Part shown: positions 11,801 through 33,119 of the stretch, piece after piece | How the letters are laid out: each line of letters opens with the position of its first letter | Position numbering within the stretch: the stretch's first letter is position 1 | From: Candidatus Lokiarchaeota archaeon | Lineage (GTDB): Archaea > Asgardarchaeota > Thorarchaeia > Thorarchaeales > Thorarchaeaceae | NCBI GenBank assembly: GCA_014730275.1 | Contig: WJIL01000126.1 | Location: forward strand, 1 to 43,508 | Reading direction: 5' to 3' | Length of the DNA: 43,508 bases | The notes under the pieces: generated by a model | What the model was told of the DNA's origin: nothing | The model's input: only the letters and a program-made list of their open reading frames with translations | Database searches by the model: none | Translations under genes and position numbers: made by a program

Positions 11801-13177
11801 ATGACAGGTAATCTCTTTGGAACAACAGGTGTCCGCAAGGTGTACGGTTCCGAATTCAATCCGAATATGGCGCTCAATCTCGGAAAAGCACTTGGTACAT
11901 ATCTAGGTCAAGGAAGAATACTCCTTGCAAGAGACGCACGAACCACAGGAAAAATGATTGCTGACGCATTCGCTTCAGGTGTAATGTCCACAGGCATTGA
12001 TGTTGTAAGAGCGGGAGTGATTCCGACACCTACGTTAGCATACAATACGAAGGCGAGAGGTTTTGATACAGGTGTTATGATAACTGCTTCACACAATCCC
12101 CCGGAGTATACAGGAATCAAATTCTGGCGTTCAGACAGCATGGGTTATACTAGCGAGGAAGAACATGAGCTCGAGGAGATTTATGAATCTGGGAAATTCC
12201 AAGTTGCTTCTTGGGATGAGCTAGGCACCCAAACGGTATCGGATATTGAAGTCAAGAAACACATCGAGGCTATCTCTGAGAGTCTGAATACAAAGGCCAT
12301 AGCTGAACAGAGCTTCAAAGTAGCAATAGACCCAGGAAATGGTGCTGCATGTGTAATGACACCATATCTTCTCAGAAGACTTGGATGCAAAGTGATTACT
12401 ATCAACGCTCAGTTGGACGGTCATTTTCCTGGAAGGCCATCTGAACCTGGAGAAGAGAATCTCAGTGATCTGATGGAACTAACAAAGGATGCACAAGCTG
12501 ACATTGGAATCGCTCATGATGGCGATGCTGACAGGGTAACCTTTGTCACCGAGAATGGGAAGTTCATCCGCGGCGATAGGGTAATCGCTCTACTTGCAAG
12601 AGAAGCAATCAGACAATCAGACAAAAAGACGATTGTTACAACCGTTGATAGCTCCTTGGTCCTCGATGAGACCGTGGAGGAGGCAGGTGGAAATGCAGTC
12701 AGGACACCGGTTGGCGATATTGAGGTTGCGATAAAAATCAAAGAGCTAGAAGCGGCCATGGGAGGGGAAGCATGTGGCGTCTATATCCTACCAGAGTTTC
12801 ATCTTGCCCCAGAGCCCTTCTTGGCAGCTTGTATGATTCTGGAGCTGATTGCTGAGCAGAACCAGAGCTTTGGTGAGCTTATTTCGGAGATACCCGCCTA
12901 TCCGCTGACGAAGGGAAAGGTTCGTTGTGACAACAGTATGAAACCAAAGGTCATGGACCAACTACAAACCAAGCTACCCAAAACACTTGGAAAGCCCCGA
13001 GAGATAGTAACAGTCGATGGGATTGGGCTGTTCCTTGAGGATGGTTGGGTCTTGGTGAGACCATCGGGAACAGAACCAGTTATCAGGGTCACTTGCGAAG
13101 CTTCCTCTGAAGAGCAAGCGAAAAGATTGCTTGCGAAAGCCAAAGATATTGTAAGTCAAACTGTAGATGATGCATAA
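11801..13177 (+). CDS. Phosphoglucosamine mutase/phosphomannomutase family enzyme
   Basis: The 458-residue alpha-D-phosphohexomutase moves phosphate between C6 and C1 of a hexose (or C5/C1 of a pentose). It shows FGTTGVRKVYG at 6-16, the phosphoserine loop TASHNP at 95-100 with S97 as active Ser, the Mg site DGDADR near 242-247, and the phosphate-binding RPSGTEP near 426-432. Length fits archaeal GlmM-type enzymes. Substrate is probably glucosamine-6-phosphate or mannose-6-phosphate, which I cannot separate by sequence. If GlmM, it would feed UDP-GlcNAc, the donor used by the BshA-type glycosyltransferase 1.4 kb downstream; this link is inference. ATG 11801 abuts a GAGG, too close to act as a normal ribosome-binding site. 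Confidence 0.88.
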   Translation: MTGNLFGTTGVRKVYGSEFNPNMALNLGKALGTYLGQGRILLARDARTTGKMIADAFASGVMSTGIDVVRAGVIPTPTLAYNTKARGFDTGVMITASHNPPEYTGIKFWRSDSMGYTSEEEHELEEIYESGKFQVASWDELGTQTVSDIEVKKHIEAISESLNTKAIAEQSFKVAIDPGNGAACVMTPYLLRRLGCKVITINAQLDGHFPGRPSEPGEENLSDLMELTKDAQADIGIAHDGDADRVTFVTENGKFIRGDRVIALLAREAIRQSDKKTIVTTVDSSLVLDETVEEAGGNAVRTPVGDIEVAIKIKELEAAMGGEACGVYILPEFHLAPEPFLAACMILELIAEQNQSFGELISEIPAYPLTKGKVRCDNSMKPKVMDQLQTKLPKTLGKPREIVTVDGIGLFLEDGWVLVRPSGTEPVIRVTCEASSEEQAKRLLAKAKDIVSQTVDDA

Positions 13178-13225: not shown

Positions 13226-13267
13226 CACAATCACCTTACATCGAACTGGATGAAGGGGCCACTGCAT

Positions 13268-13765
13268 ATGGCAGAAGAGAACGATGACGATTTCATAGCC
13301 GAGGAATTTGAATGGGCACTCAAAGATCCTACCGAGGAGAAGCTAAGAGGTTTAGGAGAAGTAGTGAACGCTATCACTAAGAAGCTAGTTGATGCCATAG
13401 GTGAGCTTCAAGAAACGATCAATGGCATGGAGAACAGAATCGGCAATCTTGAATCGAAAGTCGAAAACATGGATGGAAGAATTTCCAATATTAAAGCAAC
13501 GGGCTCCGCTGGACCTTCATCTGCAGAATCCGCTGCTTCTTCAGCGCCTTCACCAGCAGAAGCTTCCGCGTCTTCAGCACCTCCAGGAGGACCAGCTGGC
13601 GCACCAGAACCCGCAACAGCCTCAGCTTCTGACGGGCCAGGAGGGCCAGAACCTGCTAAAGCACCTGCAGGCGGACCCGGTGGCGGTGGAGGAAAAGGAG
13701 GACTCATGGGCGAACTCAAATCATTACTTGCTGCTAGAAGAAAGAAAATTGACCAAGGTGAGTAA
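13268..13765 (+). CDS. Coiled-coil protein with Ala/Ser/Pro/Gly linker and basic WH2-like tail
   Basis: The 165-residue protein starts acidic (MAEENDDDF). A strong coiled coil follows at about 35-80 (ITKKLVDAIGELQETINGME and IGNLESKVENMDGRI), then about 60 residues rich in Ala, Ser, Pro and Gly. It ends with GGGGGKGGLMGELKSLLAAR and RKKID. The last part recalls actin-binding WH2 motifs (hydrophobic pair, helix, basic LKK-like end), and coiled coil plus Pro/Gly linker recalls WASH-complex subunit CCDC53 and similar eukaryotic regulators. The canonical WH2 Gly-Leu-Lys-Lys is not exact (LLAARRKKI), so this is a resemblance, not an assignment. ATG 13268 was chosen over 13250 because AAGGGG precedes it by nine bases. 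Base usage is as in neighbours. Confidence 0.7.
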   Translation: MAEENDDDFIAEEFEWALKDPTEEKLRGLGEVVNAITKKLVDAIGELQETINGMENRIGNLESKVENMDGRISNIKATGSAGPSSAESAASSAPSPAEASASSAPPGGPAGAPEPATASASDGPGGPEPAKAPAGGPGGGGGKGGLMGELKSLLAARRKKIDQGE

Positions 13766-13788: not shown

Positions 13789-14457
13789 TCATAGTATTGT
13801 CTCAACGTTGTTATCTGGATAAAACGGCCCTATTTGTAGAGGCAACTTCACTGTGAATGCTTCACCCCTCTTGCAGCCGCCCTGCAAACCGCGGAGTCTA
13901 GTTCTGTAATCATAGAGTTTCTCGTAGTACCCGTCTGCCTTGTCAATCTGTGACTCATGTTGCTGTAACGCTTTTCTTGCGGATGCATACCCCTCTGTTA
14001 TGTCCACTATCAGATTAGGAAAGGAAATCATGGAGTTTATTTCCATATTGAGAACCCGTTCCACTCTATGCGCATTGTCAAATATCGTCCTATGAGATGC
14101 CCACTCAACAGCCTGATCTACGAGTTTCGAACACGATACATGATTCTGATTGTAGTCCTGTTCCGAGTGGGTGATGACTATTGTAGGAGCAGTTTTCAGT
14201 ATTGCTTCAACAACATCATCTTTCATCGAGGCACCAATATCGAAATCATCACGCATGTTGGAAAATACGTGTCTAGCTCCCAAAATTGAGCTGGCAGCTT
14301 CTAGTTCAGCATTCCGTTCTTCGCTTCCAGTCATACATAAAATGTCAACTGGAAACCCTTGTTGAGTATGAACAGAAATCGTTCCCCCTGCACCGAGACA
14401 TTCGTCATCAGGATGGGCAACCACAACAAGAAGTGAAGATTCAGAGTTTCTGGGCAT
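13789..14457 (-). CDS. PIG-L/BshB-type N-acetylglucosaminyl deacetylase
   Basis: The 222-residue zinc-dependent de-N-acetylase of the LmbE/PIG-L family removes acetyl from a GlcNAc-linked substrate. The metal/catalytic motif AHPDDE is at 14-19, with the third zinc ligand probably H106 (QNHVSCS). Family relatives are BshB (GlcNAc-malate, bacillithiol), MshB (mycothiol) and PIG-L (GPI precursor). The neighbouring divergent BshA-type glycosyltransferase and BshC-like protein favour a BshB-type role, i.e. making GlcN-malate; this is context inference. No signal peptide, so cytoplasmic. It shares a 104-base bidirectional gap with the glycosyltransferase. It converges on the coiled-coil/WH2-like gene, ending 23 bases from its stop. 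Confidence 0.85.
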   Translation of the reverse strand: MPRNSESSLLVVVAHPDDECLGAGGTISVHTQQGFPVDILCMTGSEERNAELEAASSILGARHVFSNMRDDFDIGASMKDDVVEAILKTAPTIVITHSEQDYNQNHVSCSKLVDQAVEWASHRTIFDNAHRVERVLNMEINSMISFPNLIVDITEGYASARKALQQHESQIDKADGYYEKLYDYRTRLRGLQGGCKRGEAFTVKLPLQIGPFYPDNNVETIL

Positions 14458-14475
14458 AGACTATATCTTGGGTAG

Positions 14476-14516
14476 CTGGTTAATCAAGTTTTGCCAGAAA
14501 ATCAATGCTGAACCAG
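14476..14516. promoter_or_regulatory. Inverted repeat in the shared bsh promoter region
   Basis: CTGGTT at 14476-14481 and AACCAG at 14511-14516 form a 6-bp inverted repeat 29 bases apart in the gap between the divergent deacetylase and glycosyltransferase genes. A TATA-like CTTAAAGG follows at 14521-14528. A common operator is possible, but short repeats of this kind occur by chance. Confidence 0.25.
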
Positions 14517-14561
14517 TTGGCTTAAAGGCCATTCAGATGTGTATTTCTTGGGTCATGGTTG

Positions 14562-15725
14562 ATGAGAATTGGAGTCTGTCTTTATCCTACAGTTGGTGGA
14601 TCCGGGTACCTAGGCACTCGACTAGGACAGCATCTGGCTGACCGAGGACATGAAGTGCATTTCATCACGTATGAGGAACCCTTTGCTTTGATGTGGGAAG
14701 AAGCCCAGAAGGTTCATGTGGACCTTGTCGATAGATTTGATTATCCCCTCTTCGAATCTATTGGTCCACCCTATGCAATGGCCTTGACATCCAAAATAGT
14801 GAAAGTGGCAAGAGATTCCAATCTTGATCTTGTGCACTGCCACTACGCAATACCTCATGCAATGGCGGCATACATGGCTCGTGAGATTGTCGGTATTCCG
14901 TACGCTGTGACACTCCATGGTTCAGATGTGCATACCCTTGGACAAGATCCAGCATATCGACCAGTCGTTCGACACACGGTTGAAACGGCTGATGTAGTCA
15001 GTTCAGTTTCTAATTTCTTGCGCAAAGAGGCACACGAAGGACTGTTCATAGATCGACAAATTGAGGTAATTCCCAACTTCATAGACACAAATCGATTTGT
15101 TCCCACGAAGGGTCTCAAGTTGGTTGTTGAGAGCGGTTGTGTTTCGGTACGGCGTGAAGAGGACGCAGAGGAGATACAACCCGATGAATTGGTATTGCTG
15201 CATGCATCCAATTTCAGAAAAGTCAAGCGAGTTCCCCAGTTAATCGATATAATGCACAAAGTAGTGGACAAGTATCCGAATACAAGGCTTGTGCTTGTTG
15301 GCGATGGTCCGGCACGGATAGAAGTTGAAAGGAAAATCGAGAAACTAGAGCTCTGTCATAATGTCCACTTGCTGGGAATCAAGAGTAATATGAGCCAGAT
15401 AATGGCGTCTGCAGATGTTTTCCTACAGAATTCAACCATGGAGGGCATGCCGCTAGTCCTGCTTGAGGCGATGTCGAGTGGGGTGCCTGTTGTTACAACT
15501 CCTGCGGGAGGAATCCCTGAACTGGTCAGAAAAGGCAAAGATGGAATCGTAACAGAAGGTTTTGAGTCAGATGAATATGCAGAAGCCGTAATCAAGGTGG
15601 TCTCTGATGACACTCTTCGAGAGAAGATGGGGAAAGCTGCTCGGAAGCGGGTAGAGGAAGGATTCTCTGCAGAGAAAATCGTCCCAGTATATGAGAAGAT
15701 GCTCCAATCGATAGTAGAGGAGTGA
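14562..15725 (+). CDS. bshA: BshA-type N-acetylglucosaminyl malate synthase (GT4)
   Basis: The 387-residue GT-B fold family 4 glycosyltransferase matches characteristic BshA stretches: CYPTVGGSG-like N-terminus at 6-14 (LYPTVGGSG), GHEVHFIT at 29-36, CHYAIPHA at 93-100, TLHGSDVHTLGQDP at 117-130, SNFRKVKRV at 216-224 and the EGMPLVLLE nucleotide-sugar motif (E294-x7-E302). BshA joins UDP-GlcNAc to L-malate as the first step of bacillithiol synthesis; the remaining uncertainty is the acceptor. Residues 184-209 carry a charged insertion not usual in BshA. ATG 14562 is chosen over TTG 14559, because it gives the typical MRIG start. The BshC-like gene starts directly after the stop, suggesting one operon. 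Confidence 0.85.
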   Translation: MRIGVCLYPTVGGSGYLGTRLGQHLADRGHEVHFITYEEPFALMWEEAQKVHVDLVDRFDYPLFESIGPPYAMALTSKIVKVARDSNLDLVHCHYAIPHAMAAYMAREIVGIPYAVTLHGSDVHTLGQDPAYRPVVRHTVETADVVSSVSNFLRKEAHEGLFIDRQIEVIPNFIDTNRFVPTKGLKLVVESGCVSVRREEDAEEIQPDELVLLHASNFRKVKRVPQLIDIMHKVVDKYPNTRLVLVGDGPARIEVERKIEKLELCHNVHLLGIKSNMSQIMASADVFLQNSTMEGMPLVLLEAMSSGVPVVTTPAGGIPELVRKGKDGIVTEGFESDEYAEAVIKVVSDDTLREKMGKAARKRVEEGFSAEKIVPVYEKMLQSIVEE

Positions 15726-15726
15726 C

Positions 15727-17442
15727 ATGGTGTTGGAACCGATTGCGACTAAAATCTATCAGGAGTACATATGGAAATCCAAGAGCAAGGAGTTGGCAGA
15801 AAGCCTGTATGCCAATCCCCCAGTTACACTGGGCGAAGCTGCAAAACGGGGTTCAGCCGTCTTTGCACAGTATGAGCAATCTGATTGTATTCGTCAGAAG
15901 GATTTAGAGAAACTCAAATCTGTCCTTCAGGCATCCAATTCAAAACTGGGCTGTTTGACCCCAGCGGTAGAAGAAAGCATCGATAAGTTGTCAAATGGGG
16001 CTGTTGAAGCTGCTCATCAGAGTGTGGCAATGGGTGGGCCAGGATACATATTGAACAAGGCTGCCTCTGCAAAAACCATTTCAAGCTTCTCGAAAGACAG
16101 CAGATTATCAGCTTTTTTCTTTGTTGCCGACTATGATGAAGTTCAAGCTGAGCTTCTCAACACCAGAACCCCTCTGATGGGACAATCAGGCAATCTAATC
16201 AGTATGCCAGTGCCCGAAGGATATGACCACTCCCCGGTCAGCGTATTGCCACTTCCTAGCTCTACATGGTATACTGAAGTCGAAGAAAGTATCCGGAAGA
16301 ATTACAATGAGCTATTCAAACCGTTGTCAGGCACAGGGAAGAAATTGTTTCAGGAGCGTCTTGAAGCTGCCCTTGCAGTAACACGATGGGCATTTCACAA
16401 TTCGGCTACTCTCGGAGAATGGGCCCAAAGAATCATCGGAAGACTTGTGAACATTGAAGGTAACCTCGGGCTCCCTATCATCCCTTCGAGCAATCCTGAA
16501 ATAAGGAAGCTCATGGCAAGAGGTTTCGAGTATCTCCTTGCTGATGAAAATCGGAAACAGTTCGTTGATGCACAGGTGCGAGCAAGCACAGTCATCGAGG
16601 AAAACGAGTATGAGACAGGAACGGGCAAAAGATCACGGGATTATGTTCCGTTCTTCTATGAATGTCAAGGGGACGGCTGCCATTCAAGTAGAGTAGAATT
16701 ACATTACGACCGGGAGGGAGCCACGGCAATTCTCACCGGTAGATGTCCAACCTGTGGAAGACCTGTGAAACTGGAATTCGATGCGGAGAAACCGGACTTG
16801 AGCGAGATTGCTGAACACCTCTCTCCCAGAGTGGATTCACGGCAATTCGTAATGGATATGGTTCTGCCTATCGTGGTTCATATTGGAGGGAGTGGCGAAA
16901 CGGCATACTACGCCCAGGTCATCCCCGTGGCAAAAGAGCTGGGTGTCCCGTTTCCAGCGTTCGTGAAATATCCCCGTCTCTACTTCAATACACCATGGGG
17001 TGAAAATCTGGCAAACACTCTGAACAACAAAGGCAAGCCAGCCTTCCATGGAGGGGAAATGTTCGGCACCATCGGGCGGATTACGAGAGCTCGTCAATCA
17101 GAGAACTATGCTGAAATGAATGAAGCTGTTCAGGACTTCAAATCACTCCTTTACGAATCACATGAGAAACTCAATCATGCTATAGATGAGCTTGAAAGAG
17201 AGCGAGAGAAAGCAAGCGATGAGAAAGACAAACAGCTTCAGATGACTCGGCTTGAAATAGAACGATACCTTAGTTGGGTATTCGGACAATACACTCAAGG
17301 AAAAATGGGGCAAGAAGTTACGTGGTCATGGATAGAATGGGCTCTGAATTCCGGCTTCACGGATCTCTTCGGACCTTATGAAAGAGCATATGTACCTGAA
17401 CTCAAGAATGGCTCAACCCTATTTGTTAATTTCATGGTGTAA
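15727..17442 (+). CDS. bshC: BshC-like putative cysteine-adding enzyme
   Basis: The 571-residue protein is recognised by colinear but diverged BshC features. SVAMGGPGYILNKAASAKTI at 99-118 corresponds to the GQQPGLFTGP..YKAISAI region; FFVADYDEVQ at 131-140 replaces the usual EDHDFEE; IGGSGETAYYAQ at 386-397 matches the strongly conserved BshC GGPGE-AYYAQ motif. The C-terminal third holds a coiled coil near 465-515 as in BshC. BshC is thought to add cysteine to GlcN-malate, completing bacillithiol. A Cys4 zinc-ribbon-like insertion (C313, C318, C340, C343) is unusual. ATG 15727 has AGGAG four bases upstream and lies one base after the BshA stop. The family is fairly sure; the reaction is inferred. 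Confidence 0.75.
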   Translation: MVLEPIATKIYQEYIWKSKSKELAESLYANPPVTLGEAAKRGSAVFAQYEQSDCIRQKDLEKLKSVLQASNSKLGCLTPAVEESIDKLSNGAVEAAHQSVAMGGPGYILNKAASAKTISSFSKDSRLSAFFFVADYDEVQAELLNTRTPLMGQSGNLISMPVPEGYDHSPVSVLPLPSSTWYTEVEESIRKNYNELFKPLSGTGKKLFQERLEAALAVTRWAFHNSATLGEWAQRIIGRLVNIEGNLGLPIIPSSNPEIRKLMARGFEYLLADENRKQFVDAQVRASTVIEENEYETGTGKRSRDYVPFFYECQGDGCHSSRVELHYDREGATAILTGRCPTCGRPVKLEFDAEKPDLSEIAEHLSPRVDSRQFVMDMVLPIVVHIGGSGETAYYAQVIPVAKELGVPFPAFVKYPRLYFNTPWGENLANTLNNKGKPAFHGGEMFGTIGRITRARQSENYAEMNEAVQDFKSLLYESHEKLNHAIDELEREREKASDEKDKQLQMTRLEIERYLSWVFGQYTQGKMGQEVTWSWIEWALNSGFTDLFGPYERAYVPELKNGSTLFVNFMV

Positions 17443-17484: not shown

Positions 17485-18756
17485 TTACTGAAGATGTTCA
17501 GTCAGGAGGTCGCCAAGTCTACGGATACCTTCCGAGATTACGTCCGGTTCAGCATACGAATAGCCCAGCCGCATGGTGTTATGTTCGGGCTTGCTCGGTA
17601 CCAGTTTGTCCTTTCCATTTCCTAGACTGTACCCAGTAATGGGATAGAACGCTGTTCCTGGCACGAATATCACATCGTTAGGTATGGCTACCTGTTTCAA
17701 GAACTCCCGTGCATCAAATTCCTCTTCACTTTGCCACCAGATGAAGAAACCGCCGGTTGGATCGGTACGCTTTCCTGGTGGGAAGGACTCATCGATAGCT
17801 TCAGCCATAGCCTCGTACCGCTTTTTGTAGCCCTTGATACCTTCCTCAAGCACATCGTCGATGTAGTTGCGATAGTACTCATCAAGTATGCGCTGAATCA
17901 AGGTTGACGTGCACAAGTCAAGGTAGCCCTTGTCCTTGAGAACCTGGTCCCTTACGGAGTCAGGCATCACAGAATATCCTACCCTCAGAACAGCTGCCTC
18001 CTTGCTGGTGGTACCAAGATAGGCAACACGGTTGTTGTCTTTATCGAGACTCTTGATAGGTTTCAAATCGGTCTCTTTGAATTGGATTTCCGCGTAAGCC
18101 GAGTCCTCCAAGAGAATAAGGTTATGATTCTCACAGATGTCAAAGAGTTCTTGCCTCCGCTTCATGGGTAAGGTAGTGCCCTTTGGATTATCAGAGTCAG
18201 GTACGACGTACACCATATCTGGATGCTTACCAAATTTCGCCTTTGAAAGATTGATGGCTTTATCGACATACTCGGGAATAATGCCATCCAGATCCGTCGG
18301 CACCGTGATTACTCGTGCTCCCAACTTGACCGCCGGACCAAGAAAACCAAGATATGCCGGTGAAGGAGTGATGATAACATCTCCAGGATCAATCATCGTA
18401 TCCAACAGAGCATACAAGGCCTGCTGTGATCCATTTGTTATTGATACACTTTCCCAGTCGGTCTCACAATCGATATTGATATTCCTCTTATCACAGAGCC
18501 GTTTTGCAAGAGTCTTCCGGAACCACTTGTGTCCGCCGGTAGGACCGTAGTTCAAATCCTCAAGTGCCATCCCGGGCTTCTCAGTATACTCTTCGCTGAG
18601 GTTTGACAGGATTTTTGCAAAGGTATCCGTCGGAATGATACCAGGTTTCCCGCCCGCGAAGTAGTATTCTACATTGTACTTGAGAAGTGCGCGGATTTGG
18701 CTCTCCGGAATGAAGCTAGTCCATGACGCGAACGCATACGAGTCTTCTTCTGCCAT
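17485..18756 (-). CDS. Class I/II PLP-dependent aminotransferase
   Basis: The 423-residue fold-type I aminotransferase moves an amino group between an amino acid and a 2-oxo acid using pyridoxal phosphate. Visible features are the GPTGGHKWFR helix start at 71-80, NGSQQAL at 108-114, DNP at 189-191, the D218 cofactor-ring partner (LEDSAYAEI), Schiff-base K252 (TTSKEAAVLRVGY), and R near 402 for the substrate carboxylate (MRLGYSY). It looks like MocR/ARO8-type family members that use aspartate, aromatic or branched substrates; the exact pair is not known. ATG 18756 has no ribosome-binding site; a palindrome (18776-18793) and a TATA-like box lie just upstream. The gene ends in a hairpin terminator. 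Confidence 0.9.
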   Translation of the reverse strand: MAEEDSYAFASWTSFIPESQIRALLKYNVEYYFAGGKPGIIPTDTFAKILSNLSEEYTEKPGMALEDLNYGPTGGHKWFRKTLAKRLCDKRNINIDCETDWESVSITNGSQQALYALLDTMIDPGDVIITPSPAYLGFLGPAVKLGARVITVPTDLDGIIPEYVDKAINLSKAKFGKHPDMVYVVPDSDNPKGTTLPMKRRQELFDICENHNLILLEDSAYAEIQFKETDLKPIKSLDKDNNRVAYLGTTSKEAAVLRVGYSVMPDSVRDQVLKDKGYLDLCTSTLIQRILDEYYRNYIDDVLEEGIKGYKKRYEAMAEAIDESFPPGKRTDPTGGFFIWWQSEEEFDAREFLKQVAIPNDVIFVPGTAFYPITGYSLGNGKDKLVPSKPEHNTMRLGYSYAEPDVISEGIRRLGDLLTEHLQ

Positions 18757-19767: not shown

Positions 19768-20847
19768 ATGAGTGATGGGAAGGCCATTTCGTTGGTGGAA
19801 CACTTGTCTCCAGACTGGTTGGCTACCCGGGTTACAGTAGCAGCTATGGGCATTTTCCTTCCAGTTTACTTTTTCATTCTCATGTTTGTCCTGCCATTTC
19901 AATTGCAGCCATTCACAGATCCAACACTGAACTGGCTATTCCATCATCTTCTCGTGCCGGCTCTGTTCTGTGCTCCATGGGTATCTTTCCTGTATGTCAA
20001 CAGGTACCGACTAGCCAATACTATTCACATGACGCATGAGACAACCACATCGGTTCCCCTCAGATGGAGGATATTCTATGGCATGAATGCTGCTTTTGTG
20101 GTGATGTTTTTCGTGTTTCCCATGGTAGCGTCTCCATTGGCAGTGATTGGAGGGCTGTTCCTTTCGGGGACGGTAATCTACAGGGTGGCAAAGGGGAAAC
20201 TGGGGAAAGGTAAACCTGCAAAGCTCATTGCAATAATCCTAGGCTTTCTCTTATCCATATTACCGATCTATGTATTCTTGCTGTTTGCACCGAGATACCT
20301 AGAGGTTTGGACAGCCATTCTCAGTGCATGGAGCAGCTTCTGGTTCGGTGTGGTATATGGAGTAGCTCAGTGTCTTGTCAATGTCCTAAGCTTTGGCTCA
20401 CCAATCCACTTCATGTATTTCGCAGCCAACGAGTTTGATAAAGGAGTGTACGGGCGCAGTTACACCCGGACACCAACAAACAAGATTCGTTTCGGGGAAT
20501 CCATCCTCTACATAGTGTTTCTTATCCTATATCTGCCGCCAATTCCTACACCTTTGGGGACTATACCGTTTCTTAACATGTCGTGGCTGTTCAAACAGTA
20601 CATCAACTGGATCTCAATGGGTGTGGTTGGCATCATGACGCTCATCAAATGGAGGTTGGATGTGGGAGATGAACAAACGCTTGGAGGCCCCTTGAACATC
20701 ATTGTTGTCGGGATGTTCCTGATCGTAGAGATATTCTTCAAAACAGATTTGCTTGTTGTAACGCTGGTCATATGGTTGGCATTCATCATATTCGCTGCGC
20801 TGTCTGCTGTTGCTTATGCTAGCGCTTCCCCACGGGAGATGCACTGA
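19768..20847 (+). CDS. Multi-pass membrane protein of unknown function
   Basis: The 359-residue protein has about eight hydrophobic helices (roughly 22-46, 58-80, 102-124, 128-146, 154-175, 185-212, 245-263, 280-300, 313-350), joined by short basic loops. There is a longer extracytoplasmic or cytoplasmic loop at about 215-245 with YGRSYTRTPTNKIRFGE. No transporter signature is seen. ATG 19768 follows AATACTTAT, so it may be leaderless. The NUDIX gene starts two bases after its stop, so the two are probably co-expressed. Possibly a permease or membrane enzyme; I cannot name a family. Confidence 0.7.
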   Translation: MSDGKAISLVEHLSPDWLATRVTVAAMGIFLPVYFFILMFVLPFQLQPFTDPTLNWLFHHLLVPALFCAPWVSFLYVNRYRLANTIHMTHETTTSVPLRWRIFYGMNAAFVVMFFVFPMVASPLAVIGGLFLSGTVIYRVAKGKLGKGKPAKLIAIILGFLLSILPIYVFLLFAPRYLEVWTAILSAWSSFWFGVVYGVAQCLVNVLSFGSPIHFMYFAANEFDKGVYGRSYTRTPTNKIRFGESILYIVFLILYLPPIPTPLGTIPFLNMSWLFKQYINWISMGVVGIMTLIKWRLDVGDEQTLGGPLNIIVVGMFLIVEIFFKTDLLVVTLVIWLAFIIFAALSAVAYASASPREMH

Positions 20848-31835: not shown

Positions 31836-33119
31836 ATGAAAGTATCACTCAATTATGGAAAGCGTAAACTTGACCTGGATATCCCAGAAGAGAACTTCGC
31901 TGGCCTTATCGAACCAACTGAAACTGAAGCAACGGAGGAAATAACTGGCGAGCTGCAAAGTGCGTTGGACAACCCACATGGCCCACAGCTTGATGAGCTC
32001 GCTGAGAACAATAGCGTGTGTGTCTTGGTTGAAGATCATACTAGAGATGAACCACACAAAGAATTGCTCACAGTAGTGGCTCCCTTTTTGAGCGATGCAA
32101 AGAGTGTGGCCTTCATAGTGGCAACAGGCTCCCATGAAGTCGAGCATCCTGAAAATCTCAAGATCGTGGATCTTGTGGATACAGCAGCAAAAGAAGCTGG
32201 AATTCAGGATTACACAGTCAGCATTCACGACTGTCAAGAGGATCCAATGATAGCAGTAGGAGAAACAAGTAGAAGAACCCCCGTGGTCATCAATGCTAAG
32301 GCTGCCAACCACGACTTGTACGTGGCACTAGCTGATATGAAAGCACATTATTTCGCGGGTTATTCGAATGCACTAAAAGACTTCCTTCCAGGTATCTGCG
32401 CCTTTGAAAGCGTCGAAGCAAACCATGCGATGGCTGTAAATCCAAAGTCTACGTTTGGTAGGCATCCGTATCATCCAAACCCAGAACGCCGTGATAACCC
32501 ACTCGCGGATGACATGAGAGAGGCATACGAAATGATTACCGATGGTGCCGAAGCTTTCACCCTCTCAATCATATCGAGCAGCGATGGATTAGTCTGGGCA
32601 GAAGCTGGTGAGCTAGAACCGGTAATAAGGAATGGAATAGAGGTTCTAGACGAAACCACAAGCTTCACAGTGAAGCCAACTGACAGAATCATAGTGTCAC
32701 CTGGCGGGTATCCACAGGACAAAAGCCTCTATCATGCACAACGTGGACTTGAACTGACGAAAAACGCTGTGAAAGATGGTGGAGAAGTGCTGTTCCTGGC
32801 TGAATGCCGAGATGGAGTAGCACCAGAGAAAGCAATGGATAATTTCTACAACAAATTGACTGCACCTTTGAATAAGGTTGTCAAGTCCATAAGCAGCAAT
32901 TACCACTTGTATGAGCATAAGGCGTACAAATTCGCGAAACTCCTTCAGCAGGTAAAAGTACACATGTACACCGAATTGAGCAAGCAACAGGTACAAGCCG
33001 CTCATCTGGAGAAGGTAAGCGAACCACAGGACATCATTGATGAATGGCTCGAGGACGACCCTGACTGCAAAATCATGGCACTGAACAAAGGAAACAAGTT
33101 GGCGGTCTATAAGGAATAG
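31836..33119 (+). CDS. larA: LarA-family (DUF2088) protein
   Basis: The 427-residue protein matches the LarA family, whose founding member is the nickel-pincer-cofactor lactate racemase. Key residues appear as ATGSH (H100), KAHYFAGYSNALKDFLPG (H171 and K181), and EANHAM (H197), colinear with the cofactor and catalytic residues of LarA. Other LarA homologues act on other 2-hydroxy acids. There is no LarB, LarC or LarE gene in this window, so the cofactor would have to be made elsewhere. ATG 31836 has GGGAG six bases upstream. Its end overlaps the stop of a sugar kinase running the other way by 13 bases. The substrate is unknown. Confidence 0.82.
   Translation: MKVSLNYGKRKLDLDIPEENFAGLIEPTETEATEEITGELQSALDNPHGPQLDELAENNSVCVLVEDHTRDEPHKELLTVVAPFLSDAKSVAFIVATGSHEVEHPENLKIVDLVDTAAKEAGIQDYTVSIHDCQEDPMIAVGETSRRTPVVINAKAANHDLYVALADMKAHYFAGYSNALKDFLPGICAFESVEANHAMAVNPKSTFGRHPYHPNPERRDNPLADDMREAYEMITDGAEAFTLSIISSSDGLVWAEAGELEPVIRNGIEVLDETTSFTVKPTDRIIVSPGGYPQDKSLYHAQRGLELTKNAVKDGGEVLFLAECRDGVAPEKAMDNFYNKLTAPLNKVVKSISSNYHLYEHKAYKFAKLLQQVKVHMYTELSKQQVQAAHLEKVSEPQDIIDEWLEDDPDCKIMALNKGNKLAVYKE

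Follow-up and report, generated by a model that had tools for sequence, protein, structure and literature searches.

The profile searches, structural comparisons and gene-order data presented here point to a three-gene pathway for a bacillithiol-type low-molecular-weight thiol in an Asgard archaeon, whose product would, with a probability of roughly 0.7, be bacillithiol or a close cysteine-hexosamine-acid variant; the proposal is well supported at gene level, while bacillithiol itself as the product is uncertain. The genes lie in a window of 43,508 nucleotides (the whole stretch of DNA that was analysed), which is contig 126 (WJIL01000126.1) of a 3.64-Mb draft genome in 151 contigs, 99.5% complete. 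The initial annotation, made from the sequence alone, had read them as a candidate bacillithiol route in an Asgard-like host, with a BshA-type glycosyltransferase of family 4 (GT4), a PIG-L deacetylase acting as BshB and a BshC-like protein. The three open reading frames (ORFs) and all the motifs quoted from them were found again, the nearest named relatives of the genome are Candidatus Thorarchaeota metagenome-assembled genomes and thus place the host in the Thorarchaeia (Asgard), and the route itself gains support from a BshA above its equivalog cut-off, a BshC fold match to 4WBD and the synteny of the three genes. The elements concerned are listed here.

13789..14457, minus strand: PIG-L/LmbE deacetylase, candidate BshB, 222 amino acids (aa), divergent from bshA (PF02585 and TIGR04001 scores)
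14458..14558, no strand: divergent promoter region bshB/bshA, 101 bp, with weak inverted repeats and short blocks common to some relatives
14559..15725, plus strand: BshA, GT4 N-acetylhexosaminyl malate synthase, 388 aa from TTG (TIGR03999; phmmer to 2JJM)
15441..15452, plus strand: BshA donor-loop variant EGMP, residues 295-298, replacing ESFG of bacterial BshA
15727..17442, plus strand: Asgard-type BshC, candidate cysteine ligase, 571 aa (PF10079, AlphaFold, Foldseek)
16663..16755, plus strand: four-cysteine zinc-ribbon-like motif of BshC, C313/C318/C340/C343 (alignment of 35 Asgard BshC proteins)

In the profile search the BshA protein exceeds the NCBI equivalog cut-off of TIGR03999 (382.1 versus 273.7 bits), as the BshA-type GT4 of the initial annotation would, and it matches B. 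anthracis BshA (2JJM) by phmmer with an E-value of 2.7e-79, whereas the profile of the mycothiol enzyme MshA gives only 67.5 bits against a cut-off of 462.5. The residues named as functional in S. aureus BshA (H118, N171, K209, E280 and E288; PMC10361700) are all kept, in the motifs HGSD, NFID, SNFRKVKR and E-x7-E. The start was called at the TTG at 14559, the ATG directly after it (14562) being the likelier one. The gene ends at 15725 and bshC begins at 15727, a one-base gap in keeping with the single operon that had been proposed.

The BshC-like protein is placed, by profile and fold, in the BshC superfamily as a member of a separate, Asgard-wide subfamily and not as an equivalog. It passes the PF10079 gathering cut-off (58.9 versus 27 bits). 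The single window sequence found no match in the PDB by phmmer; the sole significant match of a profile built from twelve thorarchaeial sequences is B. subtilis BshC (4WBD, E 7.9e-8), and a 24-sequence Asgard-type profile matches canonical Asgard BshC with 99% probability. The AlphaFold model (predicted local distance difference test, pLDDT, 93.3), whose alignment included three canonical Asgard rows that were absent from the thorarchaea-only profile, has 4WBD as its best Foldseek match in the PDB (E 1.9e-16, template modelling (TM) score 0.67/0.70); a viral fold library returned nothing informative. Eleven residues common to B. subtilis BshC are invariant in the BshA-linked Asgard set (Q98, G104, K111, D137, E142, G388, E391, Y394, P410, Q529 and E530), so that the C-terminal QE corresponds to the bacterial PQER and the DYD to DHD. 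The reported replacement of EDHD by DYDE is thus in part an effect of register, the last aspartate of EDHD being the invariant D137, while the exchange of histidine for tyrosine is genuine; other Asgard BshC carry GDHD, GDYD or THD at this position. A chance PF10079 match is ruled out by the structure and the thorarchaea-only profile, and a simply canonical BshC by the equivalog score and the tree. The initial annotation would have been refuted by a BshC-like protein that profile and structure prediction set apart from the BshC family; the protein falls inside the family by both. Cysteine ligation is its predicted activity, making it a candidate ligase.

The third gene encodes a protein of the PIG-L family (PF02585, 70.2 bits against a cut-off of 28.2) with the metal motif AHPDDE at residues 14-19 and HSEQDYNQNH at residues 97-106. 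It is divergent from bshA, here and in every complete thorarchaeial locus read. The 101-bp region in between shows no inverted repeats beyond weak ones (10 nt at 90% and 11 nt at 82%), in line with the earlier description and too weak for a regulatory site to be claimed; the short blocks TAATCAAGTTTTG and CTTAAAGG reappear in several relatives.

Gene order binds the three genes together. The initial annotation had called for a search for the same cluster in related genomes, and the block of GlmM, a small ORF, bshB (divergent), bshA, bshC, an aminotransferase gene (convergent) and pyrF is kept in 17/17 other thorarchaeial loci read, contig ends excepted. We surveyed 228 Asgard genomes with PF10079 for BshC and the BshA cut-off (f2, f9, f13, f16, f18, f20, f21, f22 and f27 are family labels of the search tool, and L-numbers are loci). 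BshC was present in 105 genomes and BshA in 90; both occurred in 85, BshA only in 5, BshC only in 20 and neither in 118 (Fisher p 2e-36, uncorrected for relatedness). All five BshA-only genomes are less than 90% complete, and two show BshC fragments at contig ends. Among the BshC-only genomes, six are from families that otherwise have BshA, most with split or truncated BshA matches, and the remaining 14 belong to f20, f21, f27 and f2. The thorarchaeial family has BshC by profile in 41 of 47 genomes, and PF10079 gave no match in four archaeal control genomes. In other Asgard families bshA and bshC mostly occur together, usually convergent, and bshB is often next to bshA. A bacterial-like C-B-A operon (L066-L068) is found instead in families f22 and f16; in f22 it lies above all three cut-offs (BshA 405-424 bits, BshC about 386 bits). 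Since their BshC cluster with bacterial BshC in the tree, from which the Asgard-type subfamily is distinct, this grouping suggests transfer of the operon from bacteria. The f22/f16 systems share the phylum and the three steps with the window, but their BshC have no zinc-ribbon motif.

In the alignment of 35 proteins, thorarchaea, f9, f2 and f27 have the full motif; the majority of the other Asgard-type BshC carry it in changed form, f18 retains just two cysteines, and canonical BshC lacks it. Its partial loss in some BshA-linked lineages makes a structural role likelier than a catalytic one; zinc binding is suggested by the motif itself. A very distant BshC-like protein of f13 (L104:7303-9015), with no NCBIfam match, has a cysteine motif as well. 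The second Foldseek match of the window BshC model is class I lysyl-tRNA synthetase (LysRS-I; 1IRX, E 1.6e-6), and a canonical Asgard BshC model has the same second match, but with a pLDDT of only 71. Like the Asgard-type BshC, LysRS-I has a cysteine ribbon at the matching place and a DYD, and in LysRS-I of the same genomes the ribbon and a DDYD motif follow in the matching order; it differs in that it joins lysine to tRNA, the TM-score is low (0.37-0.41) and its HIGH signature is not seen in BshC. Profile comparison with LysRS-I scored 58.7 against 23.7 for the best of 20 shuffles and fell to 28.8 once the cysteines were masked, which leaves structure and the cysteine motif as the main support for the link. 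With the thorarchaea-only profile the score was 23.3, no better than shuffles, and we rejected sequence-level descent from LysRS-I on these two grounds.

With the identity of the genes, their synteny and co-occurrence, the fold of BshC and its conserved residues as the observed part, we infer the following substrates and order of steps. GlmM and GlmU (the latter present in the genome, 489 bits) would provide UDP-N-acetylglucosamine (UDP-GlcNAc); BshA would transfer the N-acetylhexosamine to its predicted acceptor, malate or a comparable 2-hydroxy acid; deacetylation by the PIG-L enzyme would follow; and the Asgard-type BshC would couple cysteine through its carboxyl to the amine thus freed, yielding cysteinyl-glucosaminyl-malate (Cys-GlcN-malate) or a close relative, which might serve in redox buffering or in metal and electrophile handling. 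Malate is available in principle, as fumarase is present and can supply it. The bacterial BshA-BshB-BshC pathway (Bacillus, Staphylococcus, Deinococcus, Chlorobium) agrees in its three enzyme types, the BshA equivalog, the BshC fold, the eleven residues and a glucosamine-precursor gene nearby, whereas the window departs from it in a BshC that scores far under the equivalog cut-off and carries an additional cysteine motif, the EGMP loop, the divergent deacetylase and the lack of bacilliredoxin and true YpdA. The mycothiol pathway (MshA-MshB-MshC) likewise comprises GlcNAc transfer, deacetylation and the ligation of cysteine, the last by an enzyme resembling class I synthetases, with an inositol acceptor, a ligase derived from cysteinyl-tRNA synthetase and an acetylation step as its own features.

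Several observations weigh against this proposal. The BshC-like protein fails its equivalog (TIGR03998, 61.9 versus 265.8 bits), and the deacetylase, although of the PIG-L family and so able to serve as BshB as had been suggested, scores 87.9 bits with its best NCBIfam family, BshB1 (TIGR04001), below the cut-off of 182.5. The donor loop ESFG, conserved in characterised BshA and outside the curated TIGR03999 cut-off, is EGMP in all thorarchaeial BshA read. Bacilliredoxin BrxA/BrxB (PF06491) was found in 0/26 thorarchaeial genomes, and YpdA disulfide reductase (TIGR04018) in 0/26 above cut-off, with weak matches only, so recycling of the thiol would need other reductases. These departures are what make the product uncertain. 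Furthermore, an LDH/MDH-type malate dehydrogenase is missing from the genome, and according to a passage of a 2020 review (PMC7278568) bacillithiol had been detected in no archaeon. That no GCS2-type glutamate-cysteine ligase was found in the genome counts in favour.

In three further Asgard genomes, two of f2 and one of f27, all without BshA above cut-off in the profile search, a PIG-L protein above the BshB1 cut-off directly adjoins the BshC-like gene (L081:6246-10568, L105:567-3977 and L083:1478-5823); L081 and L083, the loci with scanned neighbours, have an amidohydrolase on the opposite flank and a family 2 glycosyltransferase (GT2) upstream. Such clusters appear to form a second route, built on GT2, to an aminosugar conjugate, possibly a thiol. 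The relatives of the window BshC that occur without BshA imply that the subfamily need not always use GlcN-malate, a further point against the proposal. A wider reading, which we offer tentatively and hold to be possible rather than probable, is an Asgard family of cysteine-aminosugar thiols whose archaeal-type BshC has retained a zinc ribbon like that of LysRS-I, with sugar or acceptor varying between lineages (EGMP BshA for the thorarchaea, GT2 for f2/f27) and the thorarchaeial thiol not being bacillithiol itself.

It seems rather unlikely that thorarchaeial BshA uses UDP-N-acetylgalactosamine (UDP-GalNAc) to give a galactosamine analogue of bacillithiol. The loop is EGMP in thorarchaea and EGAP in the sister clade f9, against ESFG in B. 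anthracis, B. subtilis, Bernardetia and other Asgard; ESFG is reported to contact GlcNAc, and a G/P residue at the same spot decides between UDP-glucose and UDP-galactose in the meningococcal W/Y capsule GT4 (PMC10361700). The conserved neighbour GlmM and the presence of GlmU nevertheless point to UDP-GlcNAc. The proline is widespread among GT4 enzymes and may act only locally; EGMP is a lead on sugar choice, short of proof. We also regard as unlikely a GT4 that glycosylates another small acid or polyol, yielding a new Cys-GlcN conjugate free of malate: the f2/f27 pairing of BshC-like protein and BshB with GT2 suggests that the ligase family may tolerate other glycosides, and the missing malate dehydrogenase fits, but BshA lies 108 bits above the malate-synthase equivalog cut-off and fumarase is present.

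A BshC-like protein that is no cysteine ligase at all, in a cluster making a non-thiol aminoacyl-sugar, for instance for a glycolipid or the S-layer, appears improbable. LysRS-I is its next structural relative, and by the time of a 2015 review (PMC4360819) not even a bacterial BshC had been shown to be active in vitro; against this, the gene is tightly linked to a true BshA, the conserved BshC residues are kept, and canonical f22/f16 BshC of the same phylum occur in the same kind of cluster with BshA and BshB. Contamination or mis-binning of a bacterial contig, conceivable for a fragmented draft genome and a pathway typical of bacteria, is extremely improbable and was rejected, as the block recurs in 17 other thorarchaeial genomes, the BshC subfamily is distinct from that of bacteria, and the window also holds archaeal-type GlmM and V-ATPase subunits.

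The bacillithiol idea is less new than the initial annotation supposed, since the passage of PMC7278568 already lists archaeal InterPro hits, 39 for BshA and 39 for BshC, most of them in Asgard, and suggests possible bacillithiol synthesis; that passage leaves BshB and the locus untreated. A 2025 survey based on BLAST with Chlorobaculum queries and strict thresholds reports no archaea with the pathway (PMC12719100), a statement to which the present gene set runs counter. The conflict is explicable by the divergence of Asgard-type BshC, which is probably too great for BLAST at strict thresholds. New here are the candidate BshB with the conserved locus, the Asgard-type BshC with its resemblance to LysRS-I, the donor-loop change and the GT2-linked variant clusters. 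The complete syntenic candidate set makes the identity of the main small thiol of Asgard archaea, the archaeal group closest to the ancestor of complex cells, testable by expression of three genes, the host itself being uncultured. It also offers a link in structure and motif between LysRS-I and BshC.

The conserved neighbours of the three genes are the following.

11801..13177, plus strand: GlmM phosphoglucosamine mutase, predicted UDP-GlcNAc precursor supply (TIGR03990, 541 bits, cut-off 439)
13250..13765, plus strand: small ORF in the GlmM/bshB gap, kept in every thorarchaeial locus read that reaches so far
17485..18756, minus strand: class I/II pyridoxal-phosphate (PLP) aminotransferase, convergent with bshC (PF00155, 90.9 bits)

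GlmM, of archaeal type, is the phosphohexomutase already noticed 0.6 kb beyond the deacetylase. The 171-aa ORF in between is in part coiled-coil-like, with a tail rich in proline, alanine and glycine, and all its family matches are weak and below cut-off. Two f20 genomes (L085:7864-9135; L103:6000-7271) have the same PLP aminotransferase, again convergent with their BshC-like gene; these genomes have no BshA above cut-off, hinting at a functional link of the aminotransferase to the BshC-like gene. Also part of the preserved thorarchaeial block is a 359-aa protein (19768-20847) that has hydrophobic stretches of membrane-like character and belongs to no Pfam family, and a LarA-like lactate racemase protein is encoded at 31836-33119 of the window.

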